Of a stretch of DNA of 16,428 nucleotides, positions 298 through 15,538 are shown piece by piece (the first letter of the stretch is position 1; each line of letters opens with the position of its first letter). The notes beneath the pieces were generated by a model, which saw only the letters and a program-made list of their open reading frames with translations, ran no database searches and was not told where the DNA came from. The DNA lies in the NCBI GenBank assembly GCA_029559475.1, contig JAKQBN010000005.1, positions 1 through 16,428 of the forward strand, read 5' to 3'. The position numbers and the translations under genes are program-made. Source of the DNA: a bacterium (GTDB taxonomy: Bacteria > UBA4055).

Positions 298-326
298 TTG
301 ACTATTGAAAGCGGATTTCTTAAAAT
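298..326 (+). promoter_or_regulatory. Promoter of the cofactor-salvage operon
   Basis: TTGACT (298-303), a 17-base spacer and TAAAAT (321-326) form a near-consensus sigma70-type promoter. The expected transcription start is about 333, so the transcript begins some 40-50 bases before the structured leader. No other convincing rightward promoter is visible before the first large gene. Confidence 0.75.
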
Positions 327-333
327 TAGTCCG

Positions 334-350
334 TCCGGAATGATCCGGAA
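334..350 (+). repeat. Two TCCGGAA copies at one-helical-turn spacing near the transcription start
   Basis: TCCGGAA occurs at 334-340 and again at 344-350, with starts 10 bases apart. Each copy contains the palindrome TCCGGA, so the pair can act both as a tandem operator and as a small hairpin. The position, immediately downstream of the -10 at 321-326, suits a repressor site, but no regulator can be assigned. Confidence 0.4.
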
Positions 351-371
351 AAATTAAATAAATAAGTTCTG

Positions 372-466
372 AAGTTTTCTCCCCTAAAGGTTCTTAAGCC
401 AATGGGGAAAAACCGACAGGTCGCTCCCGAAAGGGAACGGTCTCCCGTGCTTGGAAAGGAGCTGAA
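372..466 (+). promoter_or_regulatory. Moco-family (molybdenum/tungsten cofactor) riboswitch, candidate
   Basis: The stretch TCTCCCGTGCTTGGAAAGGAG (441-461) closely matches the 3' core of the E. coli moaA Moco RNA as I recall it (UCCCGU, CUGGAAAGG, then the start codon). Visible pairings are: CTCC 379-382 with GGAG 458-461, which includes the SD; CCAA 399-402 with TTGG 451-454; GGGA with TCCC inside that; ACCG with CGGT; and a TCCC-GAAA-GGGA tetraloop hairpin (424-435). The 5' arm between the closing stem and CCAA is reduced to a tiny CC-TAAA-GG hairpin (383-390). In the family, variants lacking the P3 arm were proposed to sense the tungsten form. The downstream MobB-like and SUOX-like genes fit a Moco ligand. 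Control is probably translational through SD sequestration. The identification relies on remembered consensus and has not been checked with a covariance model. Confidence 0.66.
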
Positions 467-583
467 ATGTATCAAAAAGAATCTTCGCGGTCTAACCCGC
501 AGAAAATCATAACTAAATATTGTTCTGAGTACAGGCTTAAAAGCACGGAAGGACTTTTTTTTGGAAAAATTACTCAGATATAA
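467..583 (+). CDS. 38-residue small ORF directly downstream of the riboswitch
   Basis: ATG at 467 follows AAGGAG (456-461) with an ideal 5-base gap, and that SD forms the 3' strand of the riboswitch closing stem. This is the same geometry as the moaA start codon in E. coli. The frame is open for 38 codons to TAA at 581-583, 20 bases before the next gene. The product is basic and polar (MYQKESSRSNPQKII at the start, one Cys at residue 19), with no membrane segment and no recognised domain. It may be a real small protein or a leader peptide that couples riboswitch state to translation of the lipoprotein gene, which has its own SD. An odd run of eight T lies inside its frame at 555-562. Expression is unproven. 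Confidence 0.5.
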   Translation: MYQKESSRSNPQKIITKYCSEYRLKSTEGLFFGKITQI

Positions 584-603
584 CTAAACAAAAGGAGTCA
601 AAA

Positions 604-1422
604 ATGTTCAAAAAAATGATAAAAGTTCTGGGGCTGGCAATTCTTGCTCTTACGATCTTTACGGCATGCAGCGATGATGACAGCTCAACAGATTCGAAAA
701 CCTACGAAAGCATTTATATTCACTGGAACGGAGATTCTGCGAATGTATCTTTCGAAAACATGGTTACGACCGATGTTGACGGTGAAAAGGCGATAACTCT
801 ATCTAATTTCATCACAGACGAGATTATACCCGGTGATTCGATCTGCACTTTCTGGAATAAGGGAACGGAATATCAGGCGAGATCACTTTACTCTTATATG
901 ATCGTCGGAGAGGACGGATTTTCTGCAAGCGTTAAAGGATATCCTGACAATATATGGGATCATATGGGAAAAGGATTCATTATGTATGACACTAGAAATG
1001 TAATTTTCCCCGATGAGCAGATCGATCTGGCCGGAGCATACAATGTTAAAGCTGCGAAACACATCGAAATGTACAGAAAATTCGATGTCGTATTTAACGA
1101 TACAATAGTCGTTCAATTTGATCTAGAAAAAATGGCAACAGAATCGGTACTGAATCCTGATTCCGTCATGGAAGATGCGATACCTCTCAGCAGCTTTATC
1201 ACCAAAGCCGTTGAAGATTCTGTATATCTTGCACAGCCTGAAAACCTTCTGTACAATTTCCGTTCGGCGGATGATTTCGGGCCTTCTACAGATCTGACAT
1301 GGACGCAGCTTCAGACGGGATACTGGCTCAAAACTAGCGCTAAAACGCACTTTACTGATCCGGCTCTGACTACAAGCAGGTATAAAGTAAAATTCATCGA
1401 GAAAATTACAGCGCATGAATAA
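604..1422 (+). CDS. Lipoprotein with two tandem SUOX-like domains
   Basis: A lipoprotein signal peptide with lipobox FTAC (Cys22) anchors the protein to a periplasm-facing membrane; an Asp/Ser-rich linker follows. The mature part holds two similar halves, about residues 48-160 and 165-270. ITLSNFITDEI matches IPLSSFITKAV, the YSYMIVGEDGF segment matches LLYNFRSADDF, and each half ends in a long motif followed by a basic beta strand (HIEMYRKFDVVF and KVKFIEKITA). The order 'L..l', then a DG/DD turn, then a terminal strand is that of SUOX-type molybdopterin-binding domains (PF00174-like), though divergent and without a Cys in the mature domains. It is the first large gene of the operon, with a strong AAAGGAG SD, and overlaps the receptor gene by 8 bases. 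Binding of a pterin cofactor for hand-over to or from the receptor is inferred; the fold assignment is tentative. Confidence 0.72.
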   Translation: MFKKMIKVLGLAILALTIFTACSDDDSSTDSKTYESIYIHWNGDSANVSFENMVTTDVDGEKAITLSNFITDEIIPGDSICTFWNKGTEYQARSLYSYMIVGEDGFSASVKGYPDNIWDHMGKGFIMYDTRNVIFPDEQIDLAGAYNVKAAKHIEMYRKFDVVFNDTIVVQFDLEKMATESVLNPDSVMEDAIPLSSFITKAVEDSVYLAQPENLLYNFRSADDFGPSTDLTWTQLQTGYWLKTSAKTHFTDPALTTSRYKVKFIEKITAHE

Positions 1423-3346
1423 ATTCCGCTATTTTGTTATAGCTGTTTCGCTTATCTTCAGGTCCGGTTTCTGCACAGTTGAAGCTGGACTTGAAGTGAC
1501 TTATGATGCAGAAGGTGACAGTTCCGTTTTCACTTACATTCTCGAAGATATCATCGTCAATTCCTATTACGAGAAAATATCAGATTTTAAAGATCTTATT
1601 GTAACTGAACGGGATATTCAGTTAAAGCAACCATTAAATGCTGCCGATGCCGTGAAATCAGCACCTGACATAAATGCTTCGACCGGAACTAAAGGAGAGA
1701 CGAATACCAAGATCAGAGGGTTCTCTTCCGAAGATGTACTGATCCTGGTTGACGGAAAACCGATCAATCCGGGATATTACGGTAAAGTCGATCTGTCGAT
1801 GATCCCGTCAGATAATATCGCGAAGATCAAAATTCTTAAAGGTCCGGCGTCTGTATCGTACGGAACGAACAATACTGGCGGAGTGGTAAACATCATTACG
1901 AAGAACGGACAGGAAAAAACCGAAACGAAGATCAGCGGGATGTTCGGAGATAATGAGTTTCAGAAGATGAACATAAATCATTCTTTCAAAACGAGTTTAA
2001 TGAACTACTGGGCTGCGGGATATTATCAGCACAGGAACGGATATGCTCTTTCTGAGGATTTTGAGCCGACATCATTTGAGAACGGAGGATTAAGGAACAA
2101 CAGCTTTTACGAAAAATGGGGCGCGGACGCGAAAGTATCGTACGAGCCATCGCAGGAAGATATATATTCGCTGTCTCTGGGATATCATTCGGCAGAAAAG
2201 GAAGTTCCCTACAGCATATATACATTCGTACCTCAAAGATATTTCGTTTTCCCCGAATGGTACAGATATCAGGCAAGCATTTCCGGATACAAAATGCTTA
2301 ATAAAAAAACAGATCTGAAAGGAATTATTACTTTCGATTCATATCAGGACAGGCTTCTAAGCTATAAGAACGCCGAATTCAGTGACGGCGAACTCGATTA
2401 TGATTCATGGCTGAAAAATTATACTCTCGGTACGATATGGTCAGGTTCATACAGCATAAACAGTTTTCACGAAATATCTTACGGACTCAGCACACTGCGT
2501 TATTATTTAAAAAAATGGGATACGGGTGATCCGAAGCTGAAAAGAGAAATTCAGACGGGCAGTATTTACGCTGACTATCTATTCAGGCCGGACGACAGAA
2601 CCGACATCAATCTGGGCGTGGCATTGAACAGCCTTTACAAAGATAATGACGGATCTTTCGAGAATTACCCCGGATTTTCATTTACCTCAGGATATGAGAC
2701 CGTTTACGGCATCAGATTGAACGCAGGAATATCCCTGACACAGAGATTTCCGACAATGCACGAATTATACAGCACGACAGGCGGCAATGAGGATCTCGAG
2801 GCTGAAGAGTGCGTAAAATATGAAGCGGGGATAACTAAAGAACACAAATTCAAGGATAATCCCGTAAAATTGAATCTGGAAGCTTCAGTGTTTTATAACG
2901 ATATGAATAACCTGATCGAGAAACAGTCAGCTGAAGATCAGTACAAAAACATTGACGCAAGAATAGCGGGAATAGAGATCGGTTCTGAAGCCGGATATGG
3001 AGAAATTCTGTCGGCAGTTATAGGATATTCGTACATGAAACCTTATGAATACGGCAACAACATGCTCTACGAATCATCAAAGCAGAAGATCAATGCCGGT
3101 CTTGAGTTCGCTTATAAGAGGATCGTTTTAAACTACGAACTCAGCCTTTACGGTAAAAGGGAAACCGAGTATACGAGGGTACTGCCTTCATATTCTATGC
3201 ATAATGTGAATATCACGTACAAGCTGAACGTATATACAGAACTTTTACTCAAGGCGGAGAATATTTCAGATACTGATTACGAGGAAGAGGTCGGATTTCC
3301 GGCTCCGGGTAGATTGGTCACAGGCGGATTTACAATTACTTTTTAA
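1415..3346 (+). CDS. TonB-dependent outer-membrane receptor (BtuB/siderophore-receptor type)
   Basis: This is an outer-membrane barrel that imports a scarce ligand using TonB energy. A hydrophobic signal peptide (residues 1-24) is followed by a possible TonB box (EDIIVNS, 44-50). The plug domain (about 60-165) contains NAADAVKSAPDI, KIRGFSSEDVLILVDG (99-114), a GPASVSYGTNNTGGVVNIITK segment and other canonical plug motifs. The rest is a 22-strand-type barrel ending in NISDTDYEEEVGFPAPGR and a terminal Phe, closely resembling the BtuB-class C terminus. At 643 residues it is normal for small-cofactor receptors. The ATG lies inside the end of the lipoprotein gene (8-base overlap), indicating coupled translation. 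The substrate cannot be deduced from the barrel; operon content and riboswitch suggest a molybdopterin-type compound rather than B12. No B12 riboswitch box is present. Confidence 0.95.
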   Translation: MNKFRYFVIAVSLIFRSGFCTVEAGLEVTYDAEGDSSVFTYILEDIIVNSYYEKISDFKDLIVTERDIQLKQPLNAADAVKSAPDINASTGTKGETNTKIRGFSSEDVLILVDGKPINPGYYGKVDLSMIPSDNIAKIKILKGPASVSYGTNNTGGVVNIITKNGQEKTETKISGMFGDNEFQKMNINHSFKTSLMNYWAAGYYQHRNGYALSEDFEPTSFENGGLRNNSFYEKWGADAKVSYEPSQEDIYSLSLGYHSAEKEVPYSIYTFVPQRYFVFPEWYRYQASISGYKMLNKKTDLKGIITFDSYQDRLLSYKNAEFSDGELDYDSWLKNYTLGTIWSGSYSINSFHEISYGLSTLRYYLKKWDTGDPKLKREIQTGSIYADYLFRPDDRTDINLGVALNSLYKDNDGSFENYPGFSFTSGYETVYGIRLNAGISLTQRFPTMHELYSTTGGNEDLEAEECVKYEAGITKEHKFKDNPVKLNLEASVFYNDMNNLIEKQSAEDQYKNIDARIAGIEIGSEAGYGEILSAVIGYSYMKPYEYGNNMLYESSKQKINAGLEFAYKRIVLNYELSLYGKRETEYTRVLPSYSMHNVNITYKLNVYTELLLKAENISDTDYEEEVGFPAPGRLVTGGFTITF

Positions 3347-3366
3347 CTAGATAAAGGAATTACGGG

Positions 3367-4419
3367 ATGAGAAGAACCGGTTTTTATTTTACCATTGCGG
3401 CAGCAGTATTGCTCTTTATAATTCAGGGCTGCGCTAAAACAGATGTTCCAAAACAGAATGAAGCGGATAAGTTCATAATATCAGGCGCGGGCGGAGATGT
3501 GTCCGTCACGATAGCTGAGCTGATAAAGGACTATAAGCCCGTTACGATGACAGTTACATCTGTAAATTCATCAGGCGAAAAAAATCAGTTGAAAGTTACA
3601 GGCGCGCTTTTTAAGGATGTCCTTAAATCTAAAGGTATCGATCCTGCTTCATTCAGCACTGTCAGAACGATCTCAGGCGACAGTTATTCGATCGAGATAC
3701 CCGAAGAAATTATCTCTGCAAGAGAAATAGTTCTGGTTTACAAGATCGACGGCGAATTCTTAAATGAAAAAAGCAGGCCGTTAAAGATCGTCATTCCGGA
3801 TGAAAGAGCCATGTACTGGGCAAGAAACGTGGTTAAGATAGAGCTTATTCAGAGAAAACATACGGTAATGACTGACAAGATCGTATTTCTGGAATCCGCT
3901 TATAAAAATTTAAAACAGACAAAATACCTGTATTACGAGAACAATGATCTTGCCGTATCTGTAAAAGATCTTCTTTCCGCTTACAGCCCCGCAAGTGATT
4001 CCGGATTATGTTTTATAACGACAGACAGCCTGAAAAGAACCGAAACGAAAGAGAACGCCATGATCTCATTTATTAAATTTACCGGTAAAGGAAAACCTTT
4101 ATTTCTTTCACCTGATCTTCCCGGCGGGATGTATATAAAGAACGTGGTGCTGTTCAAACAGCAGAATGTCTGTTATTACAGTCTCGAAAGCGCCATGCTT
4201 CAAAATCCTTCTTTAACTCTTCCGGACATATTCAAAACTTCAGAATTCGCTGAAAGCGTGGAATACAGGCTCACAACTTTAACGGGCGATACGATCACAG
4301 CCTCAGGAGATGAACTACGGAGCTGTAAAATATCATTTGAAAGCAGCGCTTACAGCTGCTTGTTTGATGGAAAAGAAAAACCGTTAAAGGACATTCTGAC
4401 AGTTGAAAAAATTTATTAG
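3367..4419 (+). CDS. Lipoprotein with SUOX-like molybdopterin-binding-type domain
   Basis: The signal peptide ends in lipobox IQGC (Cys22). Residues 35-162 give a good SUOX/PF00174-like pattern: LKVTGALFKDVLKSKGID, then a GDSY turn, IPEEI, a VYKIDGEFL strand pair, RPLKIVIPDE and YWARNVVKIELI, matching the family's 'GvpL..lL', 'DGY', 'aye.nGepL', 'plRlvvP' and 'kwvk.Iev' blocks. The remaining ~190 residues look like further degenerate copies (VSVKDLLSAY near 195, SLTLPDIFK near 287, PLKDILTVEKIY at the end). The Mo-ligating Cys region of true sulfite oxidases is missing, so a binding rather than catalytic role is inferred. AAGGA precedes the ATG by 8 bases. The gene sits between the receptor and the S component, as expected of a periplasmic carrier, and overlaps the next gene by 17 bases. 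Confidence 0.8.
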   Translation: MRRTGFYFTIAAAVLLFIIQGCAKTDVPKQNEADKFIISGAGGDVSVTIAELIKDYKPVTMTVTSVNSSGEKNQLKVTGALFKDVLKSKGIDPASFSTVRTISGDSYSIEIPEEIISAREIVLVYKIDGEFLNEKSRPLKIVIPDERAMYWARNVVKIELIQRKHTVMTDKIVFLESAYKNLKQTKYLYYENNDLAVSVKDLLSAYSPASDSGLCFITTDSLKRTETKENAMISFIKFTGKGKPLFLSPDLPGGMYIKNVVLFKQQNVCYYSLESAMLQNPSLTLPDIFKTSEFAESVEYRLTTLTGDTITASGDELRSCKISFESSAYSCLFDGKEKPLKDILTVEKIY

Positions 4420-4969
4420 GCTGAGGACATTTACTTCGACAGAGCTTGTAATAATAGGACTTGTCGCGGCTCTCGGAATAGCTACCAAGCCGATAGTAGT
4501 GCCGTTGGTTCATATCATAACCGGTCCGCTTTTTATACCCGGAGGTTCTCTTGCAGGCGGATTTTATATGCTCTGGCTCGTTCTAGGCGCCGGGATCGTG
4601 AGAAAAACAGGCACGGCGACCGTTATCGCTTTCACTCAGGCTGTAATAGCTATCATTCTGGGGATCTACGGCACTCACGGAATAGTCAGTCTTCTCACTT
4701 ATACTGCTCCGGGCATCGCCGCTGATCTTGTTTTTATCTGTTCAAAAAATAAGAATTACAATCTGATGCATTTCTTTCTTGCCGGAGCATTATCGAATAC
4801 TGCAGGTGCTTTTGCGGTAAATCTTATGCTTTTTCAATTGCCTCTCATACCCCTTATTCTCTCATTAAGCATAGCTTTATTTTCCGGCGGGCTGGGCGGA
4901 ATAATTGCGTACAGCCTGAACAATAAGCTCAGTAAATTAAAGGTTCTGAATGAAAAACATAATAATTAA
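4403..4969 (+). CDS. ECF transporter S component, YkoE-like
   Basis: This is the substrate-binding integral membrane subunit of an energy-coupling-factor importer. It has about six hydrophobic segments in 188 residues. The sequence GGFYMLWLVLGAGIVRKTGTA, followed by EIIA-like helix and GIAADLVFI and AGALSNTAGAF blocks, resembles B. subtilis YkoE (PF09819, an S component for hydroxymethylpyrimidine or related compounds) as I recall it. The start is a TTG at 4403 (MKKFIRL), inside the end of the lipoprotein gene; AAGGA lies about 11 bases upstream. It belongs with the two ATPases and the T component further down the operon. A pyrimidine/pterin-like substrate would suit the YkoE relationship and the riboswitch, but the ligand is inferred. 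An alternative is thiamine-precursor uptake, for which no other thi gene is seen here. Confidence 0.85.
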   Translation: MKKFIRLRTFTSTELVIIGLVAALGIATKPIVVPLVHIITGPLFIPGGSLAGGFYMLWLVLGAGIVRKTGTATVIAFTQAVIAIILGIYGTHGIVSLLTYTAPGIAADLVFICSKNKNYNLMHFFLAGALSNTAGAFAVNLMLFQLPLIPLILSLSIALFSGGLGGIIAYSLNNKLSKLKVLNEKHNN

Positions 4970-6383
4970 GACACTGGCGGTTATCATTCTTATATCAGCC
5001 GCGATGATATACTACAGGTTTTACTGGAACGGACATGACGGTTATATGCCTTACCTGAAGGTCGCTGGAGACGTAAAAAACGTTCTTTATTTTAACAGGT
5101 TAGAAAGCGGCACAAAAACCGGGCTTAAGAATATTATCAAAAAGGCGGAACCGGCAGCTATGAGTTTTGATGTGATCTTCGCCGGGACAGACGGACTCGC
5201 CGCAAAGATAGATGACAGGCTTGACCGCGTTTCCCTGAATTTTTCAGTTACCGAAGGCTGGGAAATAATAGATGAAGATCATCCGGTAAGCAGCCATATC
5301 AAGCATTTAAAAGAAATTATTGTTGTATCAAAAGAGGGATTTACGGATAATTCTGTAACTGTCTTTAGTCCGGACAGCAACATTATTTCAGTCTCACCAG
5401 GTCAGATGTATGAAAAAACGCTTTCACGGACTTTAAAACTGGAAGGCGAGTCGAAGATAAAAAGAGAAACGGGCGAATACGGGGTATCAGTCTACAGCAT
5501 CGTTCTCTCTATGCCTGTATCTGATGTGATAAACGCTGAATATAAGAGGCTGATGATAATATCTTCTGACGGCAAAAACTTATATACAGGCGGTCAGGGA
5601 CAGCTGATATATGACGACAACAGAATATTGTATTCGGATGAAACAGGAGATAATCCGCAGGAGATAAAAGGAATTATGCCCGATCCGCCTGAAAAGTCTG
5701 TATCGGATGCGTACCACGACGCTCTGAATTATATTTATGACGGAAAAAAAGTCATGGTGATATTCCTTGACGGATTTTCCTGCGCGCAGTATGAATATGC
5801 AGTTAAAAATAAAATGACACCATATCTGGCAGAACTGGATAAGGCTCAGAAAGCAAGTACATACTTTAAGCCTGTAACGAATGTAGGATTCGCGGCGATG
5901 ATAACAGGAACCGGTCCAATTGAGAACGGAATTCACGACAGAAGCGGTCGGGCTCTGAATTCCACTATATTTCAAATACTTAAAGAAAAAGGGCTTAAAA
6001 GCATTCTGATCGAGGCTGATATAAGCATACTTGATTCTAATGCTGACGAAAGGCTGAATACTGACAGGAACGGTAACGGAAGCATAGACGATGAGATATT
6101 TGAAGCCGCAAAAAAAGAATCAGCGAACGGCTACGATTACATGCTTGTTCATTTTCACAGAATTGACGATATGGGACATAAGCACGGCCCGTTCGGAAAA
6201 GAAACACTCGATCAGATATCAATTGCAGACGGTTACGTAAAGGATCTTGTGAATAATTTTTCCGGGAAGGTGATAATTCTTTCTGATCACGGCATGCATG
6301 AAACATCAGACGGCGGTTCTCACGGTCAGGCAAGGAGGGAGGATTTTATTGTTCCTTATTTTATAACAGACGGAGGTATATAA
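4950..6383 (+). CDS. Membrane-anchored SUOX-like / alkaline-phosphatase-superfamily phosphodiesterase fusion
   Basis: An N-terminal transmembrane anchor (residues 3-22) holds a periplasmic protein of two parts. Residues ~35-250 contain one or two divergent SUOX-like domains (FAGTDGL at 77-83, then HPVSSHIKHLKEIIVVS; a second ISSDGKNLYTGGQG block near 204-217). Residues ~265-477 form an alkaline-phosphatase-superfamily catalytic domain of the nucleotide pyrophosphatase/phosphodiesterase type: Asp274 (IFLDGF), nucleophile candidate Thr310 (PVTN), Asp406 and His410 (D..GHKHGP), Asp446-His447 (SDHG) and His458 (GSHG), so all metal ligands appear present. An EF-hand-like loop (DRNGNGSIDDE, 372-382) is inserted. 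The enzyme probably removes a phosphate or nucleotide from the ligand before import; cleaving a pterin dinucleotide is the inferred case. It overlaps the S-component gene by 20 bases. Sulfatase activity is unlikely because no Cys/Ser-x-Pro-x-Arg motif is seen. Confidence 0.85.
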   Translation: MKNIIIKTLAVIILISAAMIYYRFYWNGHDGYMPYLKVAGDVKNVLYFNRLESGTKTGLKNIIKKAEPAAMSFDVIFAGTDGLAAKIDDRLDRVSLNFSVTEGWEIIDEDHPVSSHIKHLKEIIVVSKEGFTDNSVTVFSPDSNIISVSPGQMYEKTLSRTLKLEGESKIKRETGEYGVSVYSIVLSMPVSDVINAEYKRLMIISSDGKNLYTGGQGQLIYDDNRILYSDETGDNPQEIKGIMPDPPEKSVSDAYHDALNYIYDGKKVMVIFLDGFSCAQYEYAVKNKMTPYLAELDKAQKASTYFKPVTNVGFAAMITGTGPIENGIHDRSGRALNSTIFQILKEKGLKSILIEADISILDSNADERLNTDRNGNGSIDDEIFEAAKKESANGYDYMLVHFHRIDDMGHKHGPFGKETLDQISIADGYVKDLVNNFSGKVIILSDHGMHETSDGGSHGQARREDFIVPYFITDGGI

Positions 6384-6384
6384 T

Positions 6385-6897
6385 ATGAAAAAAATGGTGA
6401 TATCGATAATGGCCGTTCTTGTGTTACTCATAACTGTTCTTTTATACCTGGATAGAGACAGGGCGGGAGAAATGGCAGATTCTGCGCAAAATGCCCGTTT
6501 CGTCATAAAATCATCAGGTGCTGTTTTAAATACACTCGGTATGAACGATATAAGATCAGCCGGAGAAGAATCTTTCAAAGCCGTTCTTAAAACGAGCGGA
6601 AAAGACCCTGTTTACCTTAACTACAAAGGATGTCAGTTAAAAGAACTTCTCAAATCGAAAAATATCGATACTGCCGGAAAAACGATGATAGTCATCAAAG
6701 CCGCAGACGGATTTTCAATAGCATATTCAATAGAGGAAGTGATGACAGATAAGAACATTTACATTGCATATGAAGAGGAAGGCGAACTTTTAAAATCCGC
6801 ATCCGAGGGAGGAAGGGGACCGTATCAGGCTATTGTTGTATCCGACCAGTTCAGCAACCGCAGATGCAAACACGCAGTTGAAGCGGATCTGAGATAG
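6385..6897 (+). CDS. Membrane-anchored single SUOX-like domain protein
   Basis: One N-terminal transmembrane helix (residues 4-21) followed by a single periplasmic domain (about 36-169). The domain is the clearest short match to the SUOX core in this operon: YKGCQLKELLKSKNID, then VIKAADGFSIAYSIEEV with Asp108-Gly109, then IAYEEEGELL, GGRGPYQAIVVSDQ and CKHAVEADLR. Cys83 lies in the 'GxxL..LL' block rather than at the Mo-ligand position of sulfite oxidases. SD GGAGG (6372-6376) is 8 bases from the ATG, and the preceding stop is one base before the start. Position between the phosphodiesterase and the ECF ATPases suggests it presents the processed ligand to the S component; this is inference. 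Confidence 0.78.
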   Translation: MKKMVISIMAVLVLLITVLLYLDRDRAGEMADSAQNARFVIKSSGAVLNTLGMNDIRSAGEESFKAVLKTSGKDPVYLNYKGCQLKELLKSKNIDTAGKTMIVIKAADGFSIAYSIEEVMTDKNIYIAYEEEGELLKSASEGGRGPYQAIVVSDQFSNRRCKHAVEADLR

Positions 6898-6898
6898 T

Positions 6899-7591
6899 AT
6901 GTACGCGCTATCGGTAAAAGACCTTAGTTTCAGCTACGGCAAGGAGAAAGAGCCGCTTTTTGAAAAGCTGTCGCTCGATGTCGAAAGAGGCTCAGTTGTC
7001 GCGCTTACGGGAAAAAGCGGAACGGGCAAAAGCACTCTCTGCTATATTATGTGCGGGATAATACCTAAAATATTAAAAATGAACATAAAGGGATCCGTTG
7101 AGCTTTTCGGAAGGAACATTAACGATATGAAGACTGAGGAAATATATTCTATTGCCGGGATAGTTTTCCAGGATCCGGAAACACAGCTTTTTATGCCTTC
7201 GGTCGAGGACGAACTTGCTTTCGCGCCTGAAAACCTGTGCTGCGAAAGAAGCGAGATAAACAGAAGGATATACAATTCGCTGAAGGCGGTAGGCATGGAA
7301 AACTTCAGATATCATCAGACGAACAGTCTTTCGGGAGGACAGAAACAGCTTATCGCGATAGCATCGGTTTTGACGATGGAGCCGGAGATCCTGATATTCG
7401 ATGAAATAATGTCCCAGCTCGATAAAAAATCTAAGCTGAGGATAAAAGAAGTTATCAACGGACTAAAAAATGACGGAAAAACGATCGTAATGGTCGAGCA
7501 TGATGAAGATAATCTCGATCTCGCTGATGAAGTGTATCATCTCGAGAACAGGTCTTTAAGTAAAATCAGCGGCAGAGCCTGTAATAAATGA
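6899..7591 (+). CDS. ECF transporter ATPase subunit 1
   Basis: This cytoplasmic ABC ATPase powers the ECF importer. It has Walker A GKSGTGKST (38-46), Q-loop FQDPETQLF (Gln91), signature LSGGQ (144-148), Walker B ILIFDE (164-169, catalytic Glu169) and switch His201. The FQDPETQLF form is typical of EcfA/CbiO proteins. At 230 residues it is shorter than most EcfA (~270) and lacks their long C-terminal extension. After Walker B the usual 'PTxxLD' reads IMSQLD, a small departure. The start follows the previous stop by one base with no clear SD, so translation is probably coupled. It overlaps the second ATPase gene by an ATGA quartet, indicating a heterodimer. Confidence 0.93.
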   Translation: MYALSVKDLSFSYGKEKEPLFEKLSLDVERGSVVALTGKSGTGKSTLCYIMCGIIPKILKMNIKGSVELFGRNINDMKTEEIYSIAGIVFQDPETQLFMPSVEDELAFAPENLCCERSEINRRIYNSLKAVGMENFRYHQTNSLSGGQKQLIAIASVLTMEPEILIFDEIMSQLDKKSKLRIKEVINGLKNDGKTIVMVEHDEDNLDLADEVYHLENRSLSKISGRACNK

Positions 7592-8259
7592 ATAATAAAG
7601 TTCCATACATCGAGACGCAAAACGCTAATTTCAGATATGACAGATCAGAATTCGAGATAAAAGACCTGGACATAAAACTTTACAGAGATGATTTTACCGC
7701 TCTTACGGGTGACAACGGCTGCGGAAAAACTACCGCCGGAAAGCTTCTTACAGGCATATTAAAACCGCGGTCAGGTTCGGTTCTGTTGAAAGGCAGAGAC
7801 ATCTCAGGTATGGATCTCGGCGGGATCGGAAAAGATATCGGCTATCTGTTCCAGAATCCCGAAAAACAGATGTTCGCCGCATCGGTTTATGATGACATCG
7901 TTTTTCCGCTTCTGATAAACGGGACCGAACCCGATACCGCGCGTGAAAAAGCGTTTAAGATAATGCGCGAACTCGAAATAGAACATCTTAAAGACGAATA
8001 TCCGTATAATCTGAGCCACGGCGAAAAACAGAGAGCAGCTATAGCCGGGATACTTGTGAACGGTGCGGGTTTTCTGATACTGGACGAACCGACAACGGCT
8101 CTCGATAAAACAAGAAAAGAACTGCTCGGCTCTATACTAAAAAACCTTCACGAAGCGGGAACAGGCATCCTGATCATCAGCCACGATGAAAAGTTTATAG
8201 AAAAATTCTGCACGCGGGAAATTAAAATGAATAACGGAGATGTAATTGAGAACGAGTGA
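7588..8259 (+). CDS. ECF transporter ATPase subunit 2
   Basis: This is the second ABC ATPase of the ECF module: Walker A GDNGCGKTT (41-49), Q-loop LFQNPEKQMF (Gln89), signature LSHGEKQ (142-148), Walker B FLILDEPTTALD from 162 (Glu167), and His199. The signature has His in place of the first Gly of LSGGQ, while its Walker B/D-loop is canonical. The partner ATPase shows the reverse pattern, so the two sites of the heterodimer are probably not equivalent. It starts in a 4-base ATGA overlap with the preceding gene and overlaps the T-component gene by 14 bases. Confidence 0.93.
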   Translation: MNNKVPYIETQNANFRYDRSEFEIKDLDIKLYRDDFTALTGDNGCGKTTAGKLLTGILKPRSGSVLLKGRDISGMDLGGIGKDIGYLFQNPEKQMFAASVYDDIVFPLLINGTEPDTAREKAFKIMRELEIEHLKDEYPYNLSHGEKQRAAIAGILVNGAGFLILDEPTTALDKTRKELLGSILKNLHEAGTGILIISHDEKFIEKFCTREIKMNNGDVIENE

Positions 8260-8986
8260 ATTCGATCCGCGATCGAAACTTATATTCGTGGCCTCCGTGT
8301 CTTCTCTTGCGGTGTTTTTAAAAAGCAACTTTCTGCTTTCGGCAATAGCACTTATCAGCATATTGACCGCGGTTATTCTCAAAGCGGATCTTTTAAAAGC
8401 TGGTCGTAAGCTGAAAAGCCTTTTGTGGATGCTGTTTCTTATCGCGGCGCTTCAAAGTATTTTCAACCGCGAAGGAACGGTCATGCTTGATCTGTACGGC
8501 TTTACTCTCATAACATCAGGCGGCATCTCAGAGGGTATAGAATTCATGCTTAGAATGGCTATAATCATCATTTCCGCGACGATAATCTCGACATCAAATG
8601 TCAGACAAAGCGTTCAGGGGCTTATCCAGCTGAAAATACCCTACGAGATCGCATTTCTTGTTTCTATCGGTATAAGATTTCTTCCGATGCTTACCGAAGA
8701 GATCAAAGATTCATTCACGGCAATAAGGCTGAGGGGAGTTGTATTTAAAGAATTAACAATAAAAAAGAAGATCGAAATTTATTCATATCTGTTTCTGCCG
8801 GTGATCGCAGGAACAATAAAAAAGGCCGAAAAGATCGCGCTTTCGATGGAGACTAGAGGGTTCAGGGCAAAAGACAAAAGGACCAGCCTCAACATTCTCA
8901 AATATTCTGCTGCGGATCACTTTTTAATTGCATTCAGCATTATTATTCTTTTAATTTTTGTTTTAATCCAGACCATTTACAGATAA
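8246..8986 (+). CDS. ECF transporter transmembrane T component
   Basis: EcfT couples the ATPases to the S component. The protein starts DPRSKL (residues 7-12), a hallmark of the CbiQ/EcfT family, has about five or six hydrophobic segments, and carries the two coupling-helix motifs: AIRLRGV (159-165) and SMETRGF (200-206), which contact the ATPase grooves. Length (246) is normal. The start is TTG at 8246, supported by GGAG (8236-8239) at 6-base spacing and by the conserved N terminus. With the two ATPases and the upstream YkoE-like protein it makes a complete dedicated (group I) ECF importer within one operon. Confidence 0.92.
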   Translation: MRTSEFDPRSKLIFVASVSSLAVFLKSNFLLSAIALISILTAVILKADLLKAGRKLKSLLWMLFLIAALQSIFNREGTVMLDLYGFTLITSGGISEGIEFMLRMAIIIISATIISTSNVRQSVQGLIQLKIPYEIAFLVSIGIRFLPMLTEEIKDSFTAIRLRGVVFKELTIKKKIEIYSYLFLPVIAGTIKKAEKIALSMETRGFRAKDKRTSLNILKYSAADHFLIAFSIIILLIFVLIQTIYR

Positions 8987-8997
8987 GGAGTCGGCAA

Positions 8998-9741
8998 ATG
9001 AAAGTATTCTCGGTTTTCGGTATAACGGGTTCAGGCAAGACCACCACAGTTGAGAACATCATAAAGGAGCTTGTTAAAAGAAGGTATAAAACTGATTCGG
9101 TTAAAGATATACATTTCGATGCTTTTAAAATAGATACCGAGGGCAGCAATACAGACAGGCATTATAAAGCCGGAGCGGGCACAGTTACAGCGAGAGGGCA
9201 TTACGAGACCGATATTCTTTTTAAGAGAAAACTGAGCATGGAGGAGATCTACCGTTTCTACGACAGCGATTACCTCGTATGCGAAGGCGTGACCGATTCG
9301 AACATTCCGAAGATCATCTGTGCGCACAATACGAAGGAAGCTGACGAAAGGCTTGACAGCTCGGTTTTCGCATTTTCAGGAAGGCTGAGTAATGAAATGA
9401 CCGAATATAAGGGACTTCCAGTGATCAATGCTGTAAAAGAACCGGAAAGACTTGTCAACCTGATCGAAGAACTTGTACCGGAAAAACTTCCAGACTTCCC
9501 CGCGGAATGCTGCAACGCCTGCGGTTTCGGAAGCTGCAGTGAGCTTTTAGCAAAGATCTTAAAAAAGGAAGCTAAAAGAGAAGACTGCGTTATTGTTAAT
9601 AAGATCATCCGCCTACGCATTGACGGGAAAGAGATCGAAATGGTGCCGTTCGTGCAGAAAATACTGTTAAATTCCGTACTTTCGACCGTAAAAGAGCTTG
9701 ACGGCTACAGAAAGAACGGCAGGATCGAGATAGAAATATAA
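8998..9741 (+). CDS. MobB-like P-loop protein with C-terminal Fe-S motif
   Basis: Residues 1-~160 resemble MobB, the GTP-binding partner of molybdopterin-guanine dinucleotide synthesis: Walker A GITGSGKTT (8-16), then SVKDIHFDAFKIDTEGSNTDRHYKAGA, close to the MobB 'KH..H.f..D..GkDs.r...aGa' signature, and YDSDYLVCEG as the Walker-B-like strand. Residues ~165-200 add a CX2CX4CX16C motif (Cys172, 175, 180, 197) typical of a small [4Fe-4S] domain (PF04060 type). The tail (DGKEIEMVPFVQKILLNSVLS) resembles the end of MobB relatives in anaerobes and archaea. A TAAGGAG SD lies at proper distance. It links the operon to Mo/W-pterin metabolism independently of the riboswitch. No MobA is present nearby, so its role may be cofactor handling, nucleotide transfer or redox sensing rather than classical MGD synthesis. 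Confidence 0.85.
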   Translation: MKVFSVFGITGSGKTTTVENIIKELVKRRYKTDSVKDIHFDAFKIDTEGSNTDRHYKAGAGTVTARGHYETDILFKRKLSMEEIYRFYDSDYLVCEGVTDSNIPKIICAHNTKEADERLDSSVFAFSGRLSNEMTEYKGLPVINAVKEPERLVNLIEELVPEKLPDFPAECCNACGFGSCSELLAKILKKEAKREDCVIVNKIIRLRIDGKEIEMVPFVQKILLNSVLSTVKELDGYRKNGRIEIEI

Positions 9742-10430
9742 TGCAGTCTGAAAGAAATTATATATTCAATGGTGTAGAATACAGAACTGTAAAGAAATTC
9801 TTTTCAAGGATAAATTCGGTCTGGCTCATCGAAAGCATAAATGAAGCCGGTCAAAAATTTATTTTAAAGGATTTTGAGCATAACAAAGACCGGCTGAAAG
9901 CAGAGCTGTCGGGAATGGAGATTTTTAAGGACTTTAGCTTGAAAATGATATATTCCGACAGCAGGTATCTGATACACGAATACGTGCCGGGCGAAACATT
10001 ACTGTCATATTTTGAAGAGGCGGAGAAAAACAACACTTCCGTTAGTAATCCAGTAACTTTAATGATGAATTTCCTGAAAGCAATGTACAAATCCGCACCG
10101 GGCTATATCCTCGGCGATATTAATTTTAATAATTTTATCATCAGCGGATCGAATTCAGAGAGTAAGATCAAGTTCATAGATTTTGAAAATGTCAAACTCG
10201 GTGAGATCGAAGATGACTTAGGAAGGATAATATCTTTCGCGCTGACTTACGATCCCGCTTTCACAGGCTGGAAATATGATTTTGTGTCGGAATTCATAGC
10301 GAAATCTGAACAAGTTCTAAAAGCGGATAAAGCTAAAATATATTTTTACGCAGAAAAAGAATTCGTAGCCATGAACGTAAGAAGGCGGTTGGAAATAGAT
10401 ATTCCCGAAGTCTTAAAAAAAGTAAAATAA
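9741..10430 (+). CDS. Small-molecule kinase of the protein-kinase/APH superfamily
   Basis: At 229 residues this is a compact kinase-like fold: ATP-lysine candidate Lys43 (FILKDF), helix Glu55, hinge region YLIHEYVPGETL (76-87), catalytic loop LGDINFNNFII (Asp126, Asn131, with Leu where HGD would have His) and metal-binding IDFEN (Asp147). Short length and the GD-x4-N / IDFEN motifs are as in aminoglycoside/choline-type and LPS (Kdo/Rdo) kinases, which phosphorylate small molecules, rather than protein kinases. Its ATG shares one base with the stop of the MobB-like gene. Paired with a periplasmic phosphatase-superfamily enzyme, it may re-phosphorylate the imported ligand, as in thiamine or nucleoside salvage. 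That role is inferred; an envelope-sugar kinase is the alternative. Confidence 0.72.
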   Translation: MQSERNYIFNGVEYRTVKKFFSRINSVWLIESINEAGQKFILKDFEHNKDRLKAELSGMEIFKDFSLKMIYSDSRYLIHEYVPGETLLSYFEEAEKNNTSVSNPVTLMMNFLKAMYKSAPGYILGDINFNNFIISGSNSESKIKFIDFENVKLGEIEDDLGRIISFALTYDPAFTGWKYDFVSEFIAKSEQVLKADKAKIYFYAEKEFVAMNVRRRLEIDIPEVLKKVK

Positions 10431-10457
10431 AAAAGGCCTCATTTCTGAGACCTTTTT
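10430..10457. terminator. Bidirectional intrinsic terminator
   Basis: AAAAAGG and CTCA pair with TGAG and CCTTTTT around a TTTC loop, with one C/A mismatch, giving an 11-bp stem flanked by A and T tracts on both strands. The first A belongs to the kinase stop codon. It ends the rightward cofactor operon and would also stop leftward transcription of the small gene at 10492-10611. Confidence 0.9.
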
Positions 10458-10491
10458 CGTTGAGGAGTGAGTGAGTTAAGTGGGCAATCTT

Positions 10492-11641: not shown

Positions 11642-12703
11642 TTATTTAACATTTTTGTAACATTCAAAGAATTGAACCCAATAAAAATAGGCTTCTCTTT
11701 TTCTCTTTCTCAATTTATACAAATGCTTAAATTCATTCGGGAATTCAAAATCCGTTAAAACTGAGGTTTCAGAGAATAACTCAATCTTTCTGAAATCATT
11801 ATTCTTGATTTTTATAGCTAATAAAGCAGCTTTAGATGCTGAAAGAATCGCATCATCGGCTCTATATGAAACATTTATGGGGTATGATGAAAAACGTCTT
11901 AATCCGTCGAACAACTCTTTCAATTCAAGAGAATCGCTAGTGTTACCAGCAGGAAAATGTGATATGATTAGGCTTGTTTCAATAATATCATCAAGAATTT
12001 TATCCACTGTAATGTTCAGATCTCTGTATTTGAGTTGTTTGTTACCTATATTCTGAAATGATTCGGCAATTATAACTAAATCATTATGAATGTCGAAGAG
12101 CCTGTCAATATCAAATAACTGCTTGATTATTTCCATAGATTTACCGGTATTATGCGGAATTCCTGAAGTAGTAGGCGCAAAAGCAGTGAGTTTGTCACCG
12201 AGAATAGAATCTATTGAAGGCATGCTCACATTAACAAGATTACTATCTGTATTAATCCATTTTGATAAGATTTTCACTTCTTTTACTACAGGATATAAAT
12301 TTTTTTCAAACAACACATCGAGAAGAACATAAGTTTCTTTTTCTGATATAACAGAGTTATAGAATAATTTAAAATGCTGCTTTGGAATATTATTGCCTGT
12401 CCTTACATCCTCTTCAAACCTTATAAACAACCCTTCGGAACAAATTTTGATCAGAATATCAGTTATACTCTCCTTTGATTCTTCAATATTAATATCAATG
12501 TCTATTGAAAATCTTTGAGGATCATCTATGAGAAGTATTAACGAAGTTCCCCCTTTGAAAATGAAATTTAATCCGTTTAACTTAAGCATTTCAAGAAGTC
12601 CCAAAGCACGGATCATTTTTTCACAGATTATCGGATCGATTTTTTTTTGTTTTTTCCTTAAGTCTAAAATCCAGTTTTTTGAATAAGAATCCGTTTTTAT
12701 CAT
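11642..12703 (-). CDS. AbiEii-type nucleotidyltransferase toxin
   Basis: This is a DNA-polymerase-beta-like nucleotidyltransferase of the AbiEii/DUF1814 family, the toxin of type IV AbiE toxin-antitoxin systems. Motif I is FKGGTSLILL (Gly51-Gly52-Thr53-Ser54), followed by RFSIDIDINIE (Asp68 and Asp70 as metal ligands). A later GDKLTAFAP segment matches the family's conserved Lys-containing block. Length (353) is slightly above the usual ~300. The start codon overlaps the antitoxin stop by four bases (ATGA), typical of the pair. The low GC content contrasts with the cofactor operon and suggests horizontal acquisition. By family knowledge it transfers nucleotides to a host RNA target when not counteracted and may serve in phage abortive infection. 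Confidence 0.9.
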   Translation of the reverse strand: MIKTDSYSKNWILDLRKKQKKIDPIICEKMIRALGLLEMLKLNGLNFIFKGGTSLILLIDDPQRFSIDIDINIEESKESITDILIKICSEGLFIRFEEDVRTGNNIPKQHFKLFYNSVISEKETYVLLDVLFEKNLYPVVKEVKILSKWINTDSNLVNVSMPSIDSILGDKLTAFAPTTSGIPHNTGKSMEIIKQLFDIDRLFDIHNDLVIIAESFQNIGNKQLKYRDLNITVDKILDDIIETSLIISHFPAGNTSDSLELKELFDGLRRFSSYPINVSYRADDAILSASKAALLAIKIKNNDFRKIELFSETSVLTDFEFPNEFKHLYKLRKRKREAYFYWVQFFECYKNVK

Positions 12704-13461
12704 TTGAGCAAATCCTCGCTGATTTTTACTTCTTTTTCTAAAATATTCTTAATCATATTATCCATTTTTCTTCTCCTGCTGTAATTGATCATAGTCGTAA
12801 AATTAATCTGATACTCTTTGAAAGCATTTTTCAATATTGTAATTGATTCATATCCCTGATATGAAATAAATGTTTCTGTGTCTGAGATCAAGTCAACCAG
12901 CATTTTTTCAATTTTTGGAGTTTTGACATTTTTTATTTGTTTTAAAGGTGATTTTGTAACAAGCTGCTTTACGATAATTGATTCTTTATTTTTTGAAATA
13001 TAAGTATCATAAGTTTTTTTATCGGGATTGATATAAATGTTCTCCAACCCTTTATCGCTAAGCAGGTAGAAAATAGAAAGCATCAGATCTTTCTCAACTT
13101 CGACGATAACAATATTGCCCGATGCCTGATGCACTGAGAATTGATTGAACCAGTTTGAACTCCATACACAATAGGAAACATCCGGATATTCTGTTGAAAT
13201 CAGATTACTGATTTTTTTGTGAATTTTTTCTATTAATGGTGCGTAAACCGCGTTATTTTCGGATATTTTATATACTCCTCTTTTTACTGAATCCAATACA
13301 CCATATTTTTTCAACTCATACACATACCATCTGAATGTAGTTTCTTTCAAGTCGGGTAAAAACCTATCTTTCATAAATTGATACAGCTCAAGTCGGGAGA
13401 AAAAACTTCTCTGTGAAAATTCACTTCTGACTTCTGTTAATATTTTCTTGCTTAAACTCAA
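12700..13461 (-). CDS. Winged-helix antitoxin (AbiEi-like, DUF6577 type)
   Basis: This is the first gene of the two-gene toxin-antitoxin operon. Residues ~1-70 are a winged helix (FFSRLELYQFMKD, then TTFRWYVYELKKYGVLDSVKRGVYKIS). The rest resembles the AbiEi/DUF6577 C-terminal domain (YCVWSSNWFNQF, IVIVEVEKD, then IVKQLVTKSPL and TPKIEKMLVDLI). The start is TTG at 13461; no ATG in frame lies nearby upstream, and only a weak GGG-containing SD is seen. In the family the antitoxin acts both as a repressor of its own promoter and as the toxin's counterpart without stable protein contact. The overlapping inverted repeat in its promoter supports autoregulation. Confidence 0.85.
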   Translation of the reverse strand: MSLSKKILTEVRSEFSQRSFFSRLELYQFMKDRFLPDLKETTFRWYVYELKKYGVLDSVKRGVYKISENNAVYAPLIEKIHKKISNLISTEYPDVSYCVWSSNWFNQFSVHQASGNIVIVEVEKDLMLSIFYLLSDKGLENIYINPDKKTYDTYISKNKESIIVKQLVTKSPLKQIKNVKTPKIEKMLVDLISDTETFISYQGYESITILKNAFKEYQINFTTMINYSRRRKMDNMIKNILEKEVKISEDLLK

Positions 13462-13548: not shown

Positions 13549-15141
13549 TTACAATTCTATCATTTTGTCAGTGACTTTTTCCCTGAAATAACGGTCATGA
13601 GAGACAACGATAAGAGTGCCCTGATAATTTATTATGGCATTTTCAAGCGCTTCTCTCGATTCGATCTCAAGATGATTTGTCGGTTCATCAAGGATAAGCA
13701 CAGAAGGTTCCGTCATCAGTATTTTCGCAAGAGCAGTTTTACTTCTTTCGCCGATGCTAAGCCCTGAAATCTTTCTGAAAACCATGTCTTTTTCGATCTT
13801 CAGGCAGCCGAGAAGAGTTCTGGCTTTGTTCTGTATCAGATTATCACCCTGAGCGACCTCATCCAAAATTGTTTTATTAAAGTCAAGATTTTCAAATTCC
13901 TGAGCATAATAACCGATCTTCACAGACGGCGACCATTTTACTGTGCCATCATCAGCAGTGAGATTGCCAGTGAGTAATTTCAAAAGAGTGCTTTTACCGC
14001 TTCCGTTCTTCCCGCAGACCGCCAGCCTGTCATTTCTGTTCAGCTCAAAGGAAAGGCCGTCAATGAGATATTCATTTGTAAATCCGAAAGACAGATCTTC
14101 GACCCTCAGAATTATATTGCCGCCGGAACTTTCTCCGTCTATTGAAAATGAGCGTTTTTTCTCCATGAAAGGCTTTTCAGACTCGGCTTTTTCGATCAAT
14201 TTCTCCATTCTCGTTTCAATGTTCTTGGCTTTCTGCATAGCGTATTTAGCAAAATTCGTGACGGAGTTATAAGTTTTAGCATTTCCTTCAATGCCCGTGC
14301 TAGCCTGATGAGTCTCAGCCCACTGTTTCCGGTCTGTATAAGCCTGTTTAAGTTGCTTAACCTTTTTATTCGCGGTCTTCTGCTGATCGATCTTATAATT
14401 CAGCTCCCTCTCCTTTTCCTGTTTGTAAAGAGAGTAGTTCCCGCTGAATTCTTTTAAGCCCTCTCTGCCGATCTCCCATATTTTTTTTGTGCAGTTATCA
14501 AGAAATTTACGGTCATGACTGACTACGATGTAGGGAGTTTTTAAATTTATCAGATAACCTTCAAGCCAGACCAGCGAATTTTCATCAATGTGGTTGGTAG
14601 GCTCATCCAGTATCAGAAGATCAGGTTCGCCTATCAGCAGTGAAGCCAAAGCTAGTTTAGTTTTTTCGCCGCCGCTAAAAGTTGAGACAGGTCTCTCAAG
14701 ATCATCTTCACAGAACCCGAACTTTCCTGCGATTTTCGATATATCAGCCTCAAAAGTATAACCGTCAAATTTCGCATAGTCATACCAGAGTAAAGCGATC
14801 TGTTCGTCATCAGCATGATTCTCTTCACTTTCCGACAGCCTTTTGCGCAATTCCGCAAGCTCAGGTCTTGTGTGAAAGAAATAATCTATCATCTTAATAT
14901 CATCATCAGGATCAAGTTCCTGAGGAAGATAAGCGATTTTATCAGCATTATTCCTATATAAATTACCCTCAAAGGCGAGTTTCCCGAGAAGTATTTTCAG
15001 CAAAGTGGTCTTGCCGCAGCCGTTACTTCCGATAAGCCCGATCTTGCTGTCCTTATCAACGGTGAAGCTGATATTTTTCAATATCTCATTCTCAGCGTCT
15101 TCGTATTTAAAACTTATATTCTGTCCCTGTATATAAAGCAT
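13549..15141 (-). CDS. ABC-F family ATPase
   Basis: This is a soluble tandem ABC protein without membrane domains, 530 residues. Domain 1: Walker A GSNGCGKTT (38-46), signature FSGGE (155-159), Walker B LLILDE (175-180). Domain 2: GKNGSGKST (377-385), signature LSIGE (461-465, Ile in place of Gly), VLILDE (481-486). The charged linker (~216-340) is the P-site tRNA interaction motif region of ABC-F factors, which act on ribosomes. SD GGAGG lies 5 bases before the ATG. The preceding leader peptide and SD hairpin are reminiscent of antibiotic-resistance ABC-F genes (Lsa/Vga/Msr/VmlR group), so ribosome protection is possible; a housekeeping translation factor (EttA/Uup-like) is the alternative. 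Resistance activity is not shown by the sequence. Confidence 0.93.
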   Translation of the reverse strand: MLYIQGQNISFKYEDAENEILKNISFTVDKDSKIGLIGSNGCGKTTLLKILLGKLAFEGNLYRNNADKIAYLPQELDPDDDIKMIDYFFHTRPELAELRKRLSESEENHADDEQIALLWYDYAKFDGYTFEADISKIAGKFGFCEDDLERPVSTFSGGEKTKLALASLLIGEPDLLILDEPTNHIDENSLVWLEGYLINLKTPYIVVSHDRKFLDNCTKKIWEIGREGLKEFSGNYSLYKQEKERELNYKIDQQKTANKKVKQLKQAYTDRKQWAETHQASTGIEGNAKTYNSVTNFAKYAMQKAKNIETRMEKLIEKAESEKPFMEKKRSFSIDGESSGGNIILRVEDLSFGFTNEYLIDGLSFELNRNDRLAVCGKNGSGKSTLLKLLTGNLTADDGTVKWSPSVKIGYYAQEFENLDFNKTILDEVAQGDNLIQNKARTLLGCLKIEKDMVFRKISGLSIGERSKTALAKILMTEPSVLILDEPTNHLEIESREALENAIINYQGTLIVVSHDRYFREKVTDKMIEL

Positions 15142-15271: not shown

Positions 15272-15538
15272 GCGGTTTTGTTAAAGTACACTGGAAATTT
15301 AAGGAAGTAATTGATAAAATACAAACCTTTTCATAGATAATTATTTTTTATCAGCCTTTTTTAATAATTAAACATTTGATTTCTAACGACAATATTGTTA
15401 AATATAAGCTACTTGTAATAGTAAAGAAGAAAGAATTGAAAATTCTTGAAAAATATTCAAAATTTATCTCTGAGTGTCATTAGATGGCGTTCTTCTTTTA
15501 GTATCTTTCGGTTAAGTTGAATAAATGAGGAAGTGAAA
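15272..15538 (+). promoter_or_regulatory. AT-rich divergent intergenic region with promoter and inverted repeat
   Basis: This region separates the leftward ABC-F leader from the rightward PLD-helicase gene. A rightward promoter candidate is TTGATT (15376-15381), 17 bases, TAAATA (15399-15404). Downstream is a perfect inverted repeat, AAGAATT-GAA-AATTCTT (15431-15447), which could be an operator or a hairpin in the 5' leader. A second, weaker promoter reading begins inside it (TTGAAA at 15436). No convincing leftward promoter for the ABC-F gene, no RNA gene and no further credible ORF were found. Confidence 0.4.

Follow-up and report, generated by a model that had tools for sequence, protein, structure and literature searches.

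A candidate operon for the salvage of a molybdopterin-type cofactor in a UBA4055 bacterium, and related operons in several phyla

The stretch of DNA analyzed here (the window) is one whole contig, 16,428 nucleotides long, of the 2.28 Mb draft genome (92% complete) of a UBA4055 bacterium, and it carries an 11-gene operon behind a riboswitch of the molybdenum cofactor (Moco) type. From sequence comparison, we consider it probable (roughly 80%) that this operon is a dedicated salvage system for a molybdopterin-type cofactor, containing either molybdenum or tungsten (Mo/W). A first-pass annotation of the window had proposed such a cofactor, or a fragment of it, as the ligand; the proposal is strengthened by the distribution of the riboswitch and by the occurrence of related operons in genomes lacking moa genes, and it is from these associations that we infer the identity of the ligand. 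We also think it fairly likely that bacteria in several phyla are Mo/W-cofactor auxotrophs, dependent on cofactor that is released by their neighbors and taken up through this energy-coupling factor (ECF)/TonB system.

Eleven open reading frames (ORFs) on the forward strand extend from 604 to 10430, overlapping or spaced by no more than 21 nt, and encode, in order, a lipoprotein, a TonB receptor, a lipoprotein with the sulfite oxidase (SUOX) fold, an ECF S component, an NPP-type phosphodiesterase, a second SUOX-fold protein, two ECF ATPases, an ECF T component, a MobB-like protein with an Fe-S domain (MobB-FeS) and a kinase-like protein. Every element named in the first-pass annotation was located at its coordinates with Rfam, Pfam/NCBIfam and the ORF list, and Pfam and NCBIfam agree with its naming of the genes, the support being weak for the smaller SUOX-like protein and the kinase. 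Its description of a single unit running from promoter to terminator holds for the tight run of 11 genes; a promoter-like site (TTGACT-17-TAAAAT, 298–326, forward strand, 10 of 12 matches) and an inverted repeat that might serve as a bidirectional terminator (10429–10458) are present, but both are weak and neither was enriched over shuffled sequences.

The operon is preceded by a Moco/tungsten-cofactor riboswitch aptamer (355–477, forward strand), which matches RF01055 at 55 bits against a gathering threshold of 36 (E = 5e-11), and the covariance search thus bears out the Moco RNA that had been proposed. The P3 stem is absent, its columns being empty in the RF01055 alignment, and Moco RNAs without P3 correlate with tungsten-cofactor metabolism (Regulski et al. 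2008, PMC2408646); by that correlation, the riboswitch would be of the tungsten-associated (Tuco) type. Tungsten use fits the content of the genome, which holds a homologue of aldehyde ferredoxin oxidoreductase (AFOR), two homologues of selenocysteine-type formate dehydrogenase (FDH) as well as tupABC, which is preceded by a second Moco RNA. Between the riboswitch and the first gene, no clear expression-platform terminator was found, and the folding of positions 480–566 was unremarkable (z of -0.07).

A scan for the S component across 84,980 species genomes yielded 140 relatives, in Clostridia and other Bacillota, Dehalococcoidia/Chloroflexota, Actinomycetota and Cloacimonadota, and 80 of them were kept for the analysis of loci. 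The recurring order is SUOX lipoprotein, S, phosphodiesterase, SUOX, A1, A2, T, MobB-FeS and kinase; the TonB receptor and the leading lipoprotein (lip1) are limited to the operons of a sister genome and of Cloacimonadota, both of which have outer membranes. The Moco riboswitch is also present at the operon of the sister genome. With a model of our own, built from 20 Moco RNAs and catching only 14 base pairs owing to a poor alignment, matches were obtained in about 51 of the 80 loci; almost all of them lie upstream and on the operon strand, and 46 have E of about 1e-6 or better. Many of these matches were rechecked with Rfam, whose model confirms the Moco RNA in 24 of the 45 loci scanned and in all 12 Cloacimonadota loci tested, which had been picked among the hits of our model. 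Contig ends interrupt some of the loci in which no RNA was found.

These data bear directly on the alternative that the operon is an ordinary importer of thiamine, a thiamine precursor or cobalamin. The S component does fall into the YkoE/ABC_cobalt family, and the models closest to the TonB receptor are those of BtuB; however, the BtuB scores fall well short of their cut-offs (139 bits for TIGR01779 against 599.7 in NCBIfam), the S component shows no close sequence relation to the YkoE structure 5edl and stands behind a Moco RNA and not a thiamine pyrophosphate (TPP) RNA, and none of the 45 related loci scanned with all of Rfam has a TPP or cobalamin riboswitch at its head. A single cobalamin RNA was seen, 10 kb downstream of the S gene in locus L087. 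A true thiamine-type paralogue does occur in the window's phylum, in a sister genome, where a TPP riboswitch (L079:571-675) precedes a distant YkoE-like ECF set; it matches the S component of the window at only E = 3e-5, and the TPP-controlled YkoE-like group is therefore separate from the group with Moco RNAs. The related operons thus share the Moco RNA and none is under TPP or B12 control, which is the reverse of the pattern that the first-pass annotation had named as contradicting its proposal, and we regard a thiamine or cobalamin importer as hardly plausible.

Salvage of the cofactor itself draws its main support from the genomes that carry the related operons. A Pfam-profile search for MoaC covered 54 genomes that carry the S component; the protein was present in 28 and absent from 26. 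The MoaC-less group includes every one of the ten Cloacimonadota-type genomes with named loci, along with both f141 genomes tested, and two of its members are 99% complete (G152, which is a single contig, and G289). A chimeric MoaA-MoaE-MoeA query, which in three MoaC-positive controls found MoaA at E of 1e-60 to 1e-78 and MoeA at 1e-44 to 1e-55, gave no MoaA in any of the 26, generic radical-SAM matches being the only hits, and no MoeA match in 24, with MoeA found in G406 and G417. Homologues of Mo/W enzymes (AFOR, FDH or the xanthine dehydrogenase (XDH) family) were found in all 26 with a chimeric AFOR-FDH-XdhA query; G152, for example, has an AFOR with 63% identity, and an Anaerosalibacter isolate has both a Sec-type FDH and XDH-family proteins. 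The co-occurrence of the gene set with Mo/W enzymes in genomes lacking de novo genes, a test proposed by the first-pass annotation, is thus observed. In addition, a sample drawn regardless of this feature contained, outside the window's phylum, five genomes with strong S matches, and each of the four that were tested combines the absence of MoaC with homologues of Mo/W enzymes. Since metal import would be useless to cells that lack the pterin scaffold, the most probable substrate is the molybdopterin-type cofactor itself; moreover, a cofactor-sensing riboswitch makes sense in cells without moa genes only if the cofactor enters them. The argument for auxotrophy rests on homology.

The same genomes speak to the possibility that tungstate or molybdate is the cargo, either free or chelator-bound, and that the cofactor is made internally. 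Such a function would agree with the frequent control of molybdate/tungstate transporters by Moco RNAs (PMC2408646), with the TupABC genes that adjoin the operon in two relatives (L105 and L126) and with the ability of the window's organism to build its own cofactor scaffold. Oxyanions would nevertheless be of no use to the 24 genomes in which MoaA, MoaC and MoeA all go undetected, the window's genome already has tupABC under its own Moco RNA, and the import of oxyanions leaves no role for the phosphodiesterase or for SUOX-fold proteins resembling pterin binders; we therefore consider this explanation unlikely. A precursor, either cyclic pyranopterin or metal-free molybdopterin, might also be imported in place of the metal-loaded cofactor, an explanation that differs from ours in the species carried and that we hold to be possible but doubtful. 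It fits G406, which lacks MoaC, keeps MoeA and has TupABC beside its operon (L105), and which may for these reasons import the metal-free form. The 24 MoaC-less genomes without a MoeA hit, on the other hand, would require an insertase of unknown kind, and the absence of MoeA there favors import of the metal-loaded form by these bacteria.

The extracytoplasmic proteins of the operon are consistent with the handling of a pterin. The SUOX-fold lipoprotein (3367–4419, forward strand), a candidate pterin-binding protein, matches Oxidored_molyb at 29.8 bits, above the cut-off, and the membrane-anchored SUOX-fold protein (6385–6897, forward strand) matches it at 22 bits, below the cut-off. Their AlphaFold models (AF2 pLDDT 87 and 90.8, respectively) gave Foldseek matches to sulfite dehydrogenases/oxidases and to PruR, with E of 1e-7 for one model and 4e-8 for the other to the sulfite oxidase family, and the smaller protein also has a weak sequence-profile match to PruR (7kom, E = 6e-4). 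The Mo-ligating Cys of the sulfite oxidase family is found in neither protein: apart from the lipobox, no Cys is conserved in the alignment of the lipoprotein (A5), and the sole Cys in that of the second protein (A6) is C-terminal and missing in some members. PruR is likewise a periplasmic SUOX-fold protein without the Mo-ligating Cys, and it binds pterins (PMC13259868). Thus, of the SUOX-like carriers named in the first-pass annotation, the fold stands, and the proteins look like candidate pterin binders resembling PruR rather than sulfite oxidase. A secreted SUOX fold without the Mo-ligating Cys is shared with PruR, the fold match having a TM score of 0.64-0.75 by target length; PruR, however, signals to DcpA/DTB regulators, whereas the proteins described here sit in an import operon in which neither the ORF list nor Pfam reveals a DcpA/DTB regulator adjacent to the SUOX-fold genes.

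The transport components would form a complete path. The lipoprotein lip1 (604–1422, forward strand) belongs to no Pfam family, and its homologues head Cloacimonadota operons; the TonB-dependent outer-membrane receptor (1415–3346, forward strand; Plug, 85 bits) also has homologues in those operons. The substrate-binding S component (4403–4969, forward strand) belongs to the PF09819 family (ABC_cobalt/YkoE-type, 59.8 bits), and the ATPase A1 (6899–7591, forward strand) matches TIGR04520 at 200 bits. The ATPase A2 (7588–8259, forward strand), which lay outside the Pfam scan, is recognized from its sequence and from homologues at the same position in related operons. The T component (8246–8986, forward strand; CbiQ family, 101 bits) carries the two Arg-Gly motifs of the coupling helices, IRLRGVV and METRGFR, as read in its sequence. 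S, A, A' and T are therefore encoded together, as expected of an ECF importer, and the set of TonB receptor and S/A/A/T proteins claimed in the first-pass annotation is borne out by Pfam/NCBIfam and the conserved position of A2.

The phosphodiesterase and the MobB-like Fe-S protein were also correctly recognized. The former (4950–6383, forward strand; Phosphodiest, 58 bits) is a membrane-anchored member of the NPP/alkaline phosphatase superfamily and retains the Thr nucleophile and six metal ligands of the NPP family (D274, T310, D406, H410, D446, H447 and H458); our guess, which fits these features, is that it splits the pyrophosphate of molybdopterin guanine or cytosine dinucleotide (MGD or MCD). 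Cloacimonadota loci such as L133:11430-11870 keep the remaining operon but only the N-terminal part of the phosphodiesterase gene, which lacks the catalytic domain, and this step is thus not essential everywhere. The MobB-FeS protein (8998–9741, forward strand) scores 63.7 bits against a cut-off of 26.6 with MobB PF03205 and 23.6 bits with the FeS domain, matches a solved MobB at E = 1.8e-16, and retains the P-loop and five Cys residues (C171, C172, C175, C180 and C197). The claim of a small-molecule kinase fares less well: the last protein (9741–10430, forward strand), of APH/RIO type with GDINFNNF and DFE motifs and with homologues in related operons, has an APH-like match, but a weak one of 20.6 bits, below the cut-off.

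Taken together, we propose that the TonB receptor would take in the cofactor, its dinucleotide or a fragment from other cells, that the SUOX-fold proteins would hold it as PruR holds pterins, and that the phosphodiesterase would trim the nucleotide off the dinucleotide form. The S component would then pass the cofactor to the ECF module for ATP-driven import, and MobB-FeS and the kinase might trap or re-activate it in the cytoplasm, where abundant cofactor would reduce expression through the riboswitch. Import would add to de novo synthesis in the window's organism and take its place in Cloacimonadota and several Clostridia.

As the first-pass annotation stated, no de novo moa or moe gene lies in the window; the same assembly, however, holds moaA, moaC, a MOSC-MogA fusion (L045) and moeA. 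Cofactor auxotrophy of this organism is thereby ruled out, and salvage would be additional to synthesis. MoaA (L045:3128-3928, reverse strand) is unusually short, at 266 aa, and falls under the Pfam C-terminal cut-off; called weak from Pfam, it proved to be short but motif-complete, with CxxxCxxC, a C-terminal CxxCx13C and a terminal GG. None of the 13 genomes of the window's phylum, which form one family, has MoaE (PF02391), and most of these genomes still have moaA/moaC/moeA and homologues of Mo/W enzymes. The absence of MoaE was considered as the reason for the importer and rejected, as sister genomes without MoaE own Mo/W enzymes yet have no importer. It does imply at least one non-orthologous step, and would thus suit the idea that genomes without moa genes make molybdopterin by an unknown route using proteins of the operon, the ECF module carrying something else. 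Pfam and NCBIfam, however, reveal no radical-SAM or cyclase-like enzyme in the operon that could substitute for MoaA or MoaC, and the SUOX-fold proteins, phosphodiesterase and TonB receptor all face outwards; we consider such a route very unlikely.

Several observations weigh against a cofactor salvage system. With its own synthesis genes, the window's organism does not need import. Free Moco is unstable outside proteins. The nearest solved relative of the S component is the thiamine-precursor protein YkoE (5edl, E = 0.026). Some relatives, such as L083 and G117, consist of S, A and T only, without SUOX-fold proteins or phosphodiesterase. The MoaC count covers carriers of the S component only; the search for MoaA, MoaE and MoeA beyond the phylum used one chimeric single-sequence query, and most of the named genomes are metagenome-assembled genomes of unknown completeness. 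Finally, the pocket of PruR is described as too small for Moco (PMC13259868), and the analogy with PruR therefore supports pterin binding in general and not Moco binding specifically.

The neighborhoods of related operons vary. In L077 and L078 (G117 and G253), which have no SUOX-like genes, the gene directly ahead of the S-A-T module encodes a large Fe-S flavoprotein subunit with a Molybdop_Fe4S4 domain. Clostridial operons such as L089 and L091 (Sedimentibacter-type) are joined by proteins of ~960-1320 aa, by FMN-binding domains and by a polyferredoxin-FMN membrane protein, hinting at a possible extracytoplasmic redox module. Linkage to Mo/W genes in L087, L121 and L105 (TupABC) speaks for a role in cofactor supply. 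In L087, a molybdopterin oxidoreductase (FDH) neighbors the operon. L121 comes from a genome in which MoaA, MoaC and MoeA gave no hits, and at L121:4605-7761 genes for MoaD-like and ThiF-like proteins stand downstream of an AFOR gene that has a Moco RNA of its own. Elsewhere in the window, the reverse strand encodes an AbiEii/AbiEi-type toxin-antitoxin pair (11642-13461; PADLOC E = 3e-116 and 3e-77) and an ABC-F-like protein that has two ABC ATPase domains but lacks a membrane part (13549-15141), and the forward strand encodes a defense-like protein with PLD and SNF2-helicase parts (15533-16426; HKD+Snf2, PbeA-like) that is interrupted by the contig end. A sub-threshold match to SNORA69 (9843-9966) was dismissed as chance.

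Several known systems share parts of this arrangement. ECF vitamin importers with TonB receptors (YkoEDC, BtuB-type) likewise combine S, two A and T components, riboswitch control and, in Gram-negatives, an outer-membrane receptor; unlike them, the operon described here has a Moco/Tuco RNA, SUOX-fold proteins, an NPP-type phosphodiesterase and MobB-FeS, and it occurs in genomes without Moco synthesis genes. The described Moco/Tuco regulon has the same RNA family, including the P3-less variant, but lists metal transporters, synthesis genes and enzymes, and a text search of that paper found no mention of "TonB", "cobalt" or "hypothetical" (Regulski et al. 2008, PMC2408646). Dietary Moco uptake by Caenorhabditis elegans also relies on ready-made Moco from other organisms, though in an animal (PMC9793310). 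TupABC, ModABC and WtpABC supply Mo/W enzymes under Moco-RNA control, but they carry oxyanions by means of ABC systems with solute-binding proteins, not ECF modules.

Moco is commonly regarded as too unstable for trading, and each cell is assumed to be self-sufficient. According to a paper of 2022, uptake of exogenous Moco had been neither examined nor observed outside C. elegans (PMC9793310). In agreement with the first-pass annotation, which knew of no importer of this kind, our searches of open-licence papers brought up no bacterial importer of Moco, although subscription journals may contain more on the subject. While its parts come from known families, the operon appears to be new in its substrate, its set of genes and the auxotrophy that it implies. 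If the proposal is correct, Moco/Tuco would be a shared nutrient like vitamin B12, and its cross-feeding in anaerobic communities would become directly testable. The operon would provide genes for the passage of molybdopterin across membranes and candidate proteins that handle Moco outside cells, and it would explain how tungsten and molybdenum enzymes operate in anaerobes without moa genes.

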